The notes under the pieces are model-generated. The model was not told where the DNA came from, searched no databases, and saw only the letters and a program-made list of their open reading frames with translations. The position numbers and the translations under genes are program-made. Below, in pieces: positions 15,368 through 18,652 of a DNA stretch of 64,000 nt (its first letter is position 1; every line of letters begins with the position of its first letter). This stretch comes from Nocardia sp. BSTN01 (GTDB lineage Bacteria; Actinomycetota; Actinomycetes; Mycobacteriales; Mycobacteriaceae): assembly GCF_015354405.1 (NCBI RefSeq), contig NZ_JADKYP010000008.1, positions 1 through 64,000 on the forward strand, written 5' to 3'.

Positions 15368-16609
15368 ATGTCATCCCGTGAATCGAAGAGCAGAAACCCG
15401 GACAAAGGTTATGTCGCCCTGCTGGGTTGGAGTCTGAACGCGGTCGAAGCGGTGGACCGATTCGACCGGCGCTATATCGTGGTGGCTCCGGAGTGGGCGG
15501 AGGAGTATTGCGCCGAACACGAGATCCCCTATCTCCTCTGGGATTTCGAACGACTCAACGACCGGTCCATGGAAATCGCGGTAACCCTGAAGGAGATGGG
15601 CGTCGACGTCGCCATCCCGATCTTCGAGGAGACCGTGGAATGGGCGGGCGCGATCAATTCGGTGCTGTTGGACAATCCGCGGCTGCTCGGGCAGGCCATG
15701 CTGCTGCGCGACAAATCGCTGATGAAACGGCGCGCGCAGCTGGGTGGTATCCGGGTGGGCATCTTCGAGGAGGCGCACGAGCGAGACGACGTCATCCGGT
15801 TCCTCAAGCGCGTCAACCAGACCCTGCTGAAACTCGACGGCGATCCGAACGATCCGATCCACATCAAGGCCTTCGACAAGGCCGGCTGCCTCGGCCACCG
15901 CGTGATCCGCACCCCCGACGAGGTCGACGCGATCCCCGACGACGAGTTCCCGGTGCTGATGGAATCCCATTTGGACGGTTGGGAATTCGCGGTCGAGGCG
16001 TGGATCCACGACGGCAGGATCCGATTCCTCAACATTTCCGAATATGTGCGGCTCGGCTACTCCGTCTTCGTCCCCGCCACGCCGGAGCTGGAGAAGTATC
16101 GTCCGGAGATCACCCGGCAGGTGGAAAAGCTGATCAAAACCTTCGATATCGAATTCGGGTTCGTCCACCCGGAATACTTCGTCACCAGCGACGGCGAGAT
16201 GTATTTCGGCGAGGTCGCCTATCGCCCGCCAGGTTTCAAGGTGTTCGAATTGCTGGAGCGCGCATACGGTTTCAACGCCTATCACGCGCTGGTGCTCGCC
16301 TTCGATCCGAAGACCACCGAGGAGGAGATCGAGGCGTTCTTCCCCCGCGAAGTGGTGGATGCGAAAGGGCACGCCGGTTCATTCGGCGTCTATCCGCGAC
16401 GGCGAGTGGTCAGCCGGTTGTCGATCCCGGAGGAGACGGAGGATCACGAATATTTCGAAACCCACGAACTCACCGCCCCGCTGGCGGAAAAGGTCACCAA
16501 GCGAACCGCATTCGGCAATCACTGGGGTCTGCTGTACTTCTTCGGCGAAGACCCGTACGCTCTGCGGGACCTGCTGAAGCGACAGGAAGAACTCGACTTC
16601 TACGTATGA
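15368..16609 (+). CDS. ATP-grasp carboxylate-amine ligase of unknown substrate
   Basis: A 413-residue protein with an N-terminal pre-ATP-grasp domain (LLGWSLNAVEAVDRFDRRYIV) and an ATP-grasp fold across about residues 110-310. Visible are the substrate/Mg region LMESHLDGWEFAVEAWIHDG and the metal-binding loop YFGEVAYRPPG. Such enzymes activate a carboxylate as acyl-phosphate and join it to an amine or thiol. No biotin-carboxylase or peptide-ligase subfamily is evident. AAGAGGGGAG at 15347-15356 precedes ATG 15368 by 11 nt; TTG 15362 would be better spaced and is an alternative. The papain-like gene starts 39 nt downstream, so the two are probably one operon. Confidence 0.8.
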   Translation: MSSRESKSRNPDKGYVALLGWSLNAVEAVDRFDRRYIVVAPEWAEEYCAEHEIPYLLWDFERLNDRSMEIAVTLKEMGVDVAIPIFEETVEWAGAINSVLLDNPRLLGQAMLLRDKSLMKRRAQLGGIRVGIFEEAHERDDVIRFLKRVNQTLLKLDGDPNDPIHIKAFDKAGCLGHRVIRTPDEVDAIPDDEFPVLMESHLDGWEFAVEAWIHDGRIRFLNISEYVRLGYSVFVPATPELEKYRPEITRQVEKLIKTFDIEFGFVHPEYFVTSDGEMYFGEVAYRPPGFKVFELLERAYGFNAYHALVLAFDPKTTEEEIEAFFPREVVDAKGHAGSFGVYPRRRVVSRLSIPEETEDHEYFETHELTAPLAEKVTKRTAFGNHWGLLYFFGEDPYALRDLLKRQEELDFYV

Positions 16610-16648
16610 CTCCTTCTCGGCAGGAATGGATCACGGGAGGGTCGGAGA

Positions 16649-18652
16649 TTGACTCCACTCGGCAGCGATGACGACACTCTGGACAGACGTCTCGCCACGC
16701 TGGACGATGCCACCCGTATTCTCGGCGCCACCAGCGATTTCGGTAAGCAGGTCAAGCTGTCCAGGGTGCTGGGTGCGCTGCGGCGGGTGCTGCTGCTGCC
16801 CGGCGGCTGCGCGGCGGTGCGAGCGCGGGCGAGCGGGCTCGAGGCGGCCGGGCTGTTCCTCGGCACCGATTGGGCGCATCCGGAGATCCTGATTCCCGCG
16901 TTGAGTGTGGGTTCGCTGCGCAGCGCCAACGCCGACACGATGGTGCTGGAGACGGTGAGCGATCTGCGGTTGCTGGCAGTGGCCAAAGGTGACTACCCGC
17001 ATCCGTCGGTGAGTGCGGAACAGGCGCTGGGGCATCTGTCGCAGGTGCTCGCCGTCAACCTGAGCTTGCTGTTCACTCCGCCGAGCGAGGCCGAACGCGA
17101 GCACCAGGGGCGGATGGCGCGGGTCTCGCGGGAGCTGATGCATCACCTGGTCGAGGAAATCGGCTACGAGAAGGTGCTCGAGCATCTGGTCGACGAGATC
17201 TGGCGGATTCTGCGCCAGCGTCCCATCCAGGTCGAGCAGGTGAAGCGGATGATCACGCAGATCGCCGTCGCCCGCAGCAATCCCGATATCGACCTCGGCG
17301 CCACCGGGCTGGGCGCGGACCGGCTGATCAGCAGTCTCTACGGCACCACCGACGCCTGCCGGGAGGATCCGGGCGTGGAGGTCTACCGCACGCGTCTGGA
17401 AAGTATGGACGACAGCGCATTGCAATACGAGGCAACGGGTTTCGCGCGCTCGATGCACGACACCGGGCTGGTGTCGCCGTATCACGCGGTGCTGCTGCGG
17501 TTCCTGCTGACCAAAGGGGAATATCTGCTCGGCGAGGCGCTGGGATTGTCGAGCACCGGGCGCGACAGCCTGCTGTGCTACCACGAACTTGTGCGCAACC
17601 TGATCGAGGAGGCCGTGCACGTCGAGACCGCGCAGGGCATCTACGGGCTCGCGCTGCTGCTGGAGCGGGGGATTCTGTATCAACCGCCGGTCGCGCCCGC
17701 GCTGTGGCGCCAACTCGCGCTGCCGGTGTCGCCGCGCTGCCGGGAACGGCTGCACGAGGTGTTCGGGCCGGTGCCGGACGCGCGGGCGCGGCTGCTGTCC
17801 GGGATGCTGTCGATCCTGGGTCTGCCGCTCGGCGTGGGGCAGGGCGACAATCCGACCTGTCAGTCGGCGCGCGCCCTGTCGATGTGGGCCTGCAACGATC
17901 CCGACTACCTGCTGCAGACCGTGGCGTGGGCGGCCCGCGACGACGAGATCGTCATGCATTTCGAGGGACAGCCGATTTCCTCGCTGGAAGCCGGCGCCGG
18001 GGTGGCGACCACCCTGCCGATGGATCTGGACCCGGTATCGCTGCTGGTCGTGCCCCATCTCGATCGCATCTACGCGGAGATGGGGCGGCGCTGCGCCGGC
18101 CGCGAAGGCGATCCGCATCGGTGGATCAACCCCGAATTCCACGGCTGGTGGTCCGGGCGCGGATTCCGCATCGACGTCGATGTGGAGACCGGGCGGCTGA
18201 TCGACGTCGACGAATTCCTGCGGCACTTCTACGCCAGCTACCACCCCTTCTACAACGGCAATCAGCCGCTGGTCCACCCGCAGCCGGCCGGTATCGCGGT
18301 GACCGACAGCGCCGCCCGGTTCGTGGGCTGGCACGCGATCACCGTCCTGCGGGTCAGCCTCGATCCGCAGGACACCATGCGGGTCTACTTCTACAACCCG
18401 AACAACGACAGCGGCCAGGACTGGGGCGACGGCGTGGTCGTCGGCACCGCCGGACACGGCGAGCGGTTCGGTGAGGGATCGCTGCCGTTCGAACAGTTCG
18501 CGTCGCGGCTCTACATCTTCCATTTCGATCCGCTCGAACGCGGCGAACCGGCCGCGGTGGAGCGCGCGGAACTGGATCGGGTCGTCGGCTACATCCACCG
18601 CAGCTGGGGTGCGGACCGGCTACCGGAGATCGTGAGCGATGCGCCGTCGTGA
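16649..18652 (+). CDS. Large protein with C-terminal papain-like cysteine peptidase fold (predicted)
   Basis: A 667-residue protein I cannot assign to a named family. Residues 1-390 look helical and soluble, with no signal peptide or membrane helix. Residues about 395-640 carry a papain-like set: Gln398 six residues before Cys404 (VGQGDNPTC, the Q-x5-C spacing of papain), His562 in GWHAITVL, and Asn583 in YFYNPNNDSGQDWGDG followed by Trp. Spacing and neighbouring residues match C1-type enzymes, so hydrolase or acyl-transfer activity is plausible but inferred. The TTG start has GGGAGGG 7 nt upstream. It follows the ATP-grasp ligase by 39 nt, suggesting action on the same amide bond or product. 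Confidence 0.6.
   Translation: MTPLGSDDDTLDRRLATLDDATRILGATSDFGKQVKLSRVLGALRRVLLLPGGCAAVRARASGLEAAGLFLGTDWAHPEILIPALSVGSLRSANADTMVLETVSDLRLLAVAKGDYPHPSVSAEQALGHLSQVLAVNLSLLFTPPSEAEREHQGRMARVSRELMHHLVEEIGYEKVLEHLVDEIWRILRQRPIQVEQVKRMITQIAVARSNPDIDLGATGLGADRLISSLYGTTDACREDPGVEVYRTRLESMDDSALQYEATGFARSMHDTGLVSPYHAVLLRFLLTKGEYLLGEALGLSSTGRDSLLCYHELVRNLIEEAVHVETAQGIYGLALLLERGILYQPPVAPALWRQLALPVSPRCRERLHEVFGPVPDARARLLSGMLSILGLPLGVGQGDNPTCQSARALSMWACNDPDYLLQTVAWAARDDEIVMHFEGQPISSLEAGAGVATTLPMDLDPVSLLVVPHLDRIYAEMGRRCAGREGDPHRWINPEFHGWWSGRGFRIDVDVETGRLIDVDEFLRHFYASYHPFYNGNQPLVHPQPAGIAVTDSAARFVGWHAITVLRVSLDPQDTMRVYFYNPNNDSGQDWGDGVVVGTAGHGERFGEGSLPFEQFASRLYIFHFDPLERGEPAAVERAELDRVVGYIHRSWGADRLPEIVSDAPS

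Follow-up and report, generated by a model that had tools for sequence, protein, structure and literature searches.

In bacteria, ATP-grasp ligases can sit beside papain-like proteins, and in glutathionylspermidine synthetase/amidase an ATP-grasp ligase and a CHAP-type cysteine amidase are combined in one protein. Here we analyse a gene pair of Nocardia sp. BSTN01 that recalls this arrangement. The pair lies in the first 64,000 nucleotides (nt) of contig NZ_JADKYP010000008.1 (assembly GCF_015354405.1), a stretch to which we refer as the window, and it encodes a predicted ATP-grasp carboxylate-amine ligase and a larger partner protein with a putative papain-like cysteine domain. The likeness to glutathionylspermidine synthetase/amidase is one of concept, namely a ligase and a cysteine amidase that act on one amide. 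In contrast to that bifunctional protein, the pair consists of two separate open reading frames (ORFs), both in the window and in the 80 best-matching loci described below. Searches of Pfam, NCBIfam and the PDB returned no match to glutathionylspermidine synthetase/amidase, and we treat the resemblance as an analogy only.

A second system that is alike in concept is the tubulin tyrosine ligase (TTL)/vasohibin cycle. TTL is an ATP-grasp enzyme. As summarised in PMC6642083 and PMC6937246, it is opposed by a cysteine peptidase that acts on a protein tail. This system differs in being eukaryotic and in having a protein substrate; it did not turn up in the searches made, none of which was a direct test of homology. 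By analogy, the Nocardia pair may work like glutathionylspermidine synthetase/amidase or like the TTL/vasohibin cycle, although no test made here places it in either. Operons of ATP-grasp amidoligases with papain-like or GNAT partners were reportedly described by Iyer et al. 2009. PMC10318531, which cites that study (its reference 74) on amidoligases, assigns C39, BtrH_N and DUF3335 to the papain cluster, and its section 8 mentions fusions of DUF3335 to GNAT domains. Protein modification of the RimK and TTL type by ATP-grasp enzymes is mentioned in PMC4431377. In PMC2922099, ATP-grasp ligases and a novel papain-like family belong to larger, biosynthetic operons, whereas the pair described here is free-standing. 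At the level of titles and abstract openings, no description of the pair was apparent in the literature, which is not a claim that it is absent from print.

In the window, the ligase gene covers positions 15368-16609 of the forward strand (ATG start, 413 amino acids) and was recognised from the ORF list, Pfam, a PDB profile search and Foldseek. The partner gene follows on the same strand at 16649-18652 (TTG start, 667 amino acids). The 39 nt between them (16610-16648, forward strand) include a GGAG that, read by eye, resembles a Shine-Dalgarno sequence. Both ORFs and the short gap between them were thus found as a first-pass annotation of the window had described them. Judged by sequence, both genes are far from chance ORFs, because relatives of the partner that are 51-98% identical and nearly full length occur in two phyla.

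To describe how often the two genes occur together, we searched several sets of genomes. Of 99 relatives of the window genome, 59 of them congeneric if the window's own genome is counted, 22 have the partner and the same 22 a full-length ligase, and by their coordinates the two genes are neighbours on one strand in all 22. Weak ligase matches in 13 further genomes of this set, with at most 40.6 bits, were counted as other ATP-grasp enzymes. In a set of 396 Actinomycetota drawn evenly, the same four genomes hold both genes; in one of them (G457) two contig ends each hold a part of the ligase, and two of the four (G000 and G003) are also among the 22. Seven further Actinomycetota with weak ligase matches were likewise counted as having other ATP-grasp enzymes and left out of the co-occurrence. 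Weak partner matches in five other Actinomycetota and at a second place in G003 were rescored and dropped from the counts: three of these six turned out to be UvrD helicases (two) and a CTP synthase (one), and we took the remaining three for chance matches.

We then turn to the wider distribution. A scan of a species-level genome collection for the partner yielded at least 586 relatives, of which we analysed the best 80, that is, the closest and not a random selection, with some strains shared with the other samples. In all 80 loci the ligase lies directly upstream of the partner on the same strand, with an estimated gap of 6 to 114 nt. The ligase is frame-broken in one of them (L072, N. testacea) and cut by a contig end in two (L098 and L122). 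The hosts include Actinomycetota (Nocardia, Antrihabitans, Mycolicibacter, Mycolicibacillus, Pseudonocardia, Amycolatopsis, Streptomyces, Dietzia and others) and Gammaproteobacteria (Halomonadaceae, Marinobacter, Marinimicrobium, Oceanimonas and Guyparkeria). Among 349 Pseudomonadota genomes the ligase was found in nine, four of which are also part of the Halomonadaceae survey below. In the stretches fetched from the other five, the partner is always near the ligase, once in the usual order and four times in divergent orientation (0.3 to 1.1 kb apart). One further Pseudomonadota ligase copy (L219 in genome G751) stands alone in its 16-kb stretch; this genome (loci L218 and L219) has three ligase copies, two of which are of a lower-scoring type and lie about 17 kb apart.

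In the family Halomonadaceae, 121 genomes were surveyed separately for each gene. A ligase match was found in 75 and a partner match in the same 75. We count 73 of these as carriers, since the other two (G522 and G608) keep only short remnants of both genes. These remnants lie side by side (L212 and L213, respectively), which suggests joint loss. Among the 73 carriers, G505 and G613 have frame-broken copies. Such breaks, in the ligase or in both genes, were seen in G613 (L214), in G505 (L215) and in the N. testacea locus, and sequencing error and decay are indistinguishable in these cases. For the comparison of positions we used 81 ligase and 90 partner places, entering one of the two fragments for the broken genes of G613 and G505 and leaving out short remnants and weak matches. 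Within 1.5 kb, the ligase precedes the partner in 68 cases and the partner precedes the ligase in three. Thus, in Halomonadaceae adjacency is the rule and not a necessity, and co-presence in a genome is without exception. Taken over all genomes searched for both genes, the same ones carry both, and the two genes are usually adjacent in two phyla. The pairing proposed in the first-pass annotation is therefore stronger than was claimed there (both genes shared by 22 of 99, 4 of 396 and 73 of 121 genomes, and adjacent in each of the best 80 loci), and homologues of the one gene are not mostly found without the other.

If the partner depends on a ligase, a second, intact one is expected wherever the neighbouring copy is truncated or missing. 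Five Halomonadaceae genomes (G535, G554, G575, G587 and G591) have an intact first partner with no whole ligase beside it. Four of them retain a ligase stump of 25-40 codons next to the partner, and the thresholds used revealed no such stump in G587. Each of the five carries an intact second ligase at another place in its genome. Such a second ligase occurs in 13 of the 73 carriers, and five of five would be reached by chance about 9 times in 100,000 if relatedness is ignored.

The distribution across phyla points to horizontal spread. We inferred trees of 41 ligases and 41 partners with a quick method; several long branches were flagged, and the trees were rooted on genome G379, so that the direction of transfer is not readable from them. 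In both trees the Actinomycetota sequences except G379 group together and have Oceanimonas as their neighbour (support for this join 93 and 84), and the phylum labels need two changes in each tree. The core of RecA is 70.6-73.3% identical between the window genome and six Pseudomonadota. Compared with the same Pseudomonadota, the window ligase is 81.5-85.7% identical in three (L105, L093 and L137), 81% in G806 and 74% in G632; for the sixth, G684, only the RecA figure was used and the first ligase copy was left out. Within the order (Antrihabitans and Mycolicibacillus), RecA is 89.3-90.8% and the ligase 86.0-87.7% identical, and for the distant G379 the figures are 74.0% and 76%. Transfer between phyla is the simplest reading of these sequence comparisons, and strong constraint on the sequence could contribute to the high ligase identity. 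No relative was found in viral contigs or phage records, and one relative was found in a 1.8-Mb Halomonas plasmid record.

Our favoured reading, to which we assign a probability of roughly 0.42, is that the pair is a horizontally spread and self-contained module of two enzymes that makes one amide on a widely available substrate and hydrolyses or transfers it. The ATP-grasp enzyme would activate a carboxylate with ATP and join it to an amine, like the L-amino-acid ligases. The partner would bind the same molecule, with its helical and cysteine parts both contributing, and its residues Cys404, His562 and Asn583 together with Gln398 would form an acyl-enzyme, which is then hydrolysed or passed on to another acceptor. 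Between them, the two enzymes would thus form one amide bond and cleave it again, or form and transfer it. We infer the substrate, the direction, the catalysis by the partner and the action of both proteins on one bond. As the hosts are unrelated and no other genes are linked to the module, its substrate would be something that nearly all hosts have. We prefer an amino-acid-like small molecule over a protein, because the nearest folds of the ligase are dipeptide ligases.

By its predicted fold and its sequence signature, the ligase belongs to the ATP-grasp superfamily. The Pfam family PF13535 (ATP-grasp_4) matches the window ligase with E 6.4e-5 and 23.1 bits, which is under the cut-off of 27, and it matches all 35 members of the ligase family that were scanned (E up to 1, best 7.5e-7). 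PF18603 (LAL_C2) matches weakly in three of the 35, with a best E of 0.12. A modest AlphaFold2 model (mean predicted local distance difference test score, pLDDT, 59.8) has 291 PDB matches under E 0.001 in Foldseek. The top match is the L-amino-acid ligase RizA (4wd3; E 2.1e-12, template modelling (TM) score 0.46), with a root-mean-square deviation of 10.9 that marks a loose superposition. The best 50 of the 291 are L-amino-acid ligases, biotin-dependent carboxylases and purine-pathway enzymes, all of the same fold. Thus, the assignment as an ATP-grasp enzyme was borne out, and ligase chemistry is likely for the 413-residue protein.

The L-amino-acid ligases BL00235 (3vot), RizA and BacD/YwfE (3vmm, 3wnz) share the ATP-grasp fold with the window ligase and are its best Foldseek matches. 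Local alignment of the putative ATP-site glutamates, including an EV-x-x-R block, is also common to them, whereas identity in the structure alignments is 13-15% and phmmer gives E of only 0.006-0.01. In a PDB sequence profile search (E 0.0046-0.0088), Lys167 of the window ligase aligns with a lysine of 4dim, and Glu269 and Glu282 align with glutamates of 3vot. From what is known of the ATP-grasp family, we take Lys167 to bind ATP and the two glutamates to be Mg-ATP ligands. Conservation of residues in both proteins was counted from tblastn matches over 117 loci, wherever a match covers the position. The putative ATP-binding lysine (codon 15866-15868, forward strand, as are all codons given here) is present in 102 of 103 matches; the remaining one, from the frame-broken L072, has a gap at this position. 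Glu269 (16172-16174) is found in 104 of 104 and Glu282 (16211-16213), which lies in the motif GEVAYRPPG and aligns to EVGAR of 3vot, in 105 of 105. The putative nucleotide and magnesium signature of ATP-grasp enzymes, one lysine and two glutamates, is therefore kept across the family.

The partner belongs to no catalogued family, as had been claimed for it. None of the 37 members scanned falls into a Pfam family (best stray match E 0.033). Searches of NCBIfam, PADLOC and PHROGs with the window protein returned no family, and no sequence relative was found in the PDB. Its model (mean pLDDT 68.4) consists of about 390 residues of helices, a poorly modelled stretch and then strands. We divide the protein into a helical N-terminal part (about 1-390) and a putative papain-like cysteine C-terminal part (about 390-640). 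Across 41 partner sequences, including second copies and one 51%-identical relative, Cys404 is the sole invariant cysteine. The putative nucleophile Cys404 (17858-17860) lies in a predicted helix (403-413) in a low-confidence part of the model, and six residues before it stands Gln398 (17840-17842), the putative oxyanion-hole residue; both are kept in 108 of 108 tblastn matches. The putative catalytic His562 (18332-18334), in a predicted strand (558-571), and the putative third catalytic residue Asn583 (18395-18397), in the motif NPNND just past a predicted strand (577-582), are kept in 109 of 109. The Q-x5-C spacing and the order Gln, Cys, His, Asn are those of papain. Both are present in the partner, and the predicted helix and strands fit them, with the helix at a pLDDT under 50. 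At the level of motifs, the order of the putative catalytic residues is also like that of C39_2 (PF13529) and BtrH_N (PF14399). In contrast to these domains of 134-143 positions, the partner has a long stretch between Cys404 and the strands and a helical part of 390 residues.

Several observations speak for the favoured reading of a make-and-unmake, or make-and-transfer, module. Among them are the shared carriers of both genes, the adjacency in all 80 best loci, the second ligases in the five genomes named above, the ATP-grasp fold with L-amino-acid ligases as first matches, and the invariant putative active-site residues. The partner-then-ligase and divergent layouts also keep the genes close, papain-like entries appear in both fold searches, and no third gene or small ORF is conserved across genera. 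Other observations weigh against it. In Halomonadaceae, 10 ligase and 19 partner copies stand apart, and adjacency is thus not obligatory. By bit score, second subfamilies account for all 10 of these lone ligases and for 14 of the 19 lone partners; in the loci fetched, their members are 73-75% (ligase) and 53-57% (partner) identical to the window proteins. The partner model is poor around Cys404 (pLDDT under 50 for residues 393-500), and no Foldseek match of the partner reaches E 0.001. Papain-like entries make up only one and three of the 50 best matches in the two fold searches, and the part of the model that they align to is not given. In the first search, the papain-like 5wdk is at rank 41 (probability 0.66, not significant); in the second, a Lausannevirus papain-like peptidase (0.63), a Marseillevirus one (0.21) and a Tupanvirus cathepsin (0.47) are found, none of them significant. 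Lastly, hhalign gives the C-terminal part a probability of 0.2 against C39_2 and 0.1 against BtrH_N. These values are no better than those of column-shuffled controls (0.1-2.0), whereas C39_2 against BtrH_N, the positive control, gives 95.3. The comparison covered these two families, with C39_2 built from 15 and BtrH_N from 21 of 30 fetched loci each, and the result is a weak negative because the partner alignment is shallow (effective number of sequences, Neff, 1.7). We call the papain-like domain putative because the motif and weak fold matches stand against absent profile similarity. The cysteine-peptidase-like domain of the first-pass annotation thus holds as an invariant Q-x5-C/H/N motif with weak fold matches and not as a match to a family in Pfam, NCBIfam, the PDB or hhalign.

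The same evidence bears on the possibility that the partner is not a cysteine hydrolase but an enzyme of another kind, or a protein that binds the ligase's substrate and delivers or carries it. This would agree with the missing sequence-family match and the negative profile comparison. Furthermore, 131 positions are invariant in the 41 partner sequences, and they cover most of the protein, including blocks outside the putative triad. We consider this explanation doubtful, since the sole invariant cysteine has an invariant glutamine six residues before it, an invariant histidine lies in a predicted strand and an invariant asparagine after the next one, and papain-like peptidases appear in both fold searches.

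An alternative closer to the TTL/vasohibin cycle is that the ligase adds an amino acid or a short tag to a conserved protein and that the partner recognises the tagged protein and takes the tag off again. With a conserved protein as substrate, the presence in many hosts without a third gene would be accounted for; furthermore, the N-terminal part of the partner is helical, and helical solenoid proteins are the best Foldseek matches of the partner model. These matches are weak (best E 6.6e-3, TM score 0.16), and the nearest folds of the ligase are small-molecule ligases, so that we hold a cycle on a protein tail to be rather unlikely. We judge it similarly improbable that the two mobile genes form a tagging system that needs no third gene, in which the ligase would attach an amide tag to some near-universal component of bacteria and the helical-repeat cysteine enzyme would take it off or transfer it.

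The hosts could also suggest a salt or drought module, in which an amide compatible solute is made and its level is adjusted by the cysteine protein. The 73 Halomonadaceae carriers, and the many loci in genera with halophile or marine names, which are a lead only, would fit such a role. However, Nocardia, Mycolicibacter and Mycolicibacillus are also carriers, and no osmotic gene was seen to follow the pair across lineages, the nearest case being one MscS-type neighbour (L101). We regard this explanation as quite improbable.

Next we consider the genes around the pair. In the window, the Pfam scan finds cobS upstream (PF02654, E 2.5e-43) and a gene with MDMPI_N downstream (PF11716, E 6e-19). 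The position between cobS and an MDMPI gene given in the first-pass annotation is thus correct, whereas the meaning attached to it did not survive: cobS lies beside the pair in 5 of the 80 loci (L061-L064 and L068), all from Nocardia, and MDMPI in two of these five, once on the other side of the pair. We dropped genomic context as a clue, and the cobS/MDMPI context of the pair is incidental. Of ten flanking genes, taken from ten loci, nine have unrelated annotations (a lysyl-tRNA synthetase type, Mqo, MscS, TauE, SDR, an esterase, an FtsJ-type methyltransferase, a transposase and TerD) and one has no match. The TerD-domain gene follows the pair in N. alba (L073:12041-12661) and is not a recurrent neighbour. 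When the neighbours of 37 of the 80 loci were clustered, no family apart from the pair itself kept a constant position in both phyla. The most widespread one occurs in nine genera, on mixed strands and at a distance of about 6 kb. In Halomonadaceae and relatives several neighbours recur in up to eight genera, as a shared site would predict. In two of six loci searched, both from Halomonadaceae (L105:8376-8472 and L110:8396-8492, reverse strand), a gene for the small signal recognition particle (SRP) RNA is located upstream of the ligase, at a distance of about 200 nt, and the pair may sit in an insertion-prone spot there.

Within 700 nt of the pair, the 80 loci contain 1,471 small ORFs, among which no cluster lies at a fixed place and strand across genera. 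Clusters upstream on the same strand are confined to Nocardia (nine and eight loci) or to Halomonadaceae (12 loci, where they overlap the region of the SRP RNA), and by eye they look incidental. The biggest cluster (113 ORFs, 51 loci) was rejected as a precursor, as its members lie on mixed strands and on both sides of the pair; we read it as low complexity. Cysteine peptidases occur in graspetide clusters. In a graspetide-like system, a small encoded precursor would be cross-linked by the ligase and trimmed by the cysteine protein. Such a reading draws on the ability of ATP-grasp ligases to make graspetides (summary of PMC8939145), but with no precursor cluster coherent across genera among these small ORFs and no common transporter among the flanking genes of ten loci, it is very improbable.

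Some further observations concern the window itself. Its genome is close to N. kruczakiae and N. nova, and the partner is 98% identical to the N. kruczakiae copy. The GC content at third codon positions is 0.804 in the ligase and 0.862 in the partner, compared to 0.824-0.892 in six neighbour genes; the total GC of the ligase (0.605) is below the 0.695-0.737 of the neighbours. From this base composition we see no clear indication that the pair entered recently. No RNA elements were found in the window, neither window protein matches a phage family, and none of the anti-phage defence families of PADLOC matches either protein at E up to 0.1. At 11911-14007, a 698-residue ORF has ends that, by eye only, resemble CobU and CobT fused in one frame.

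The two-gene module is real and well conserved, and it is without a family in the libraries searched. At least 586 relatives of the partner exist in a species-level collection, yet Pfam and NCBIfam have no family for it. The pair occurs in Gammaproteobacteria and Actinomycetota with ligases that are about 80-86% identical between them. It is a clean target, since there are two proteins and no pathway to reconstruct. Finding the amide of the pair would bring to light either a new metabolite of wide occurrence or a new reversible tag on proteins. If the tag reading is true, this would be a bacterial cycle of making and unmaking an amide with a new family of cysteine enzyme.

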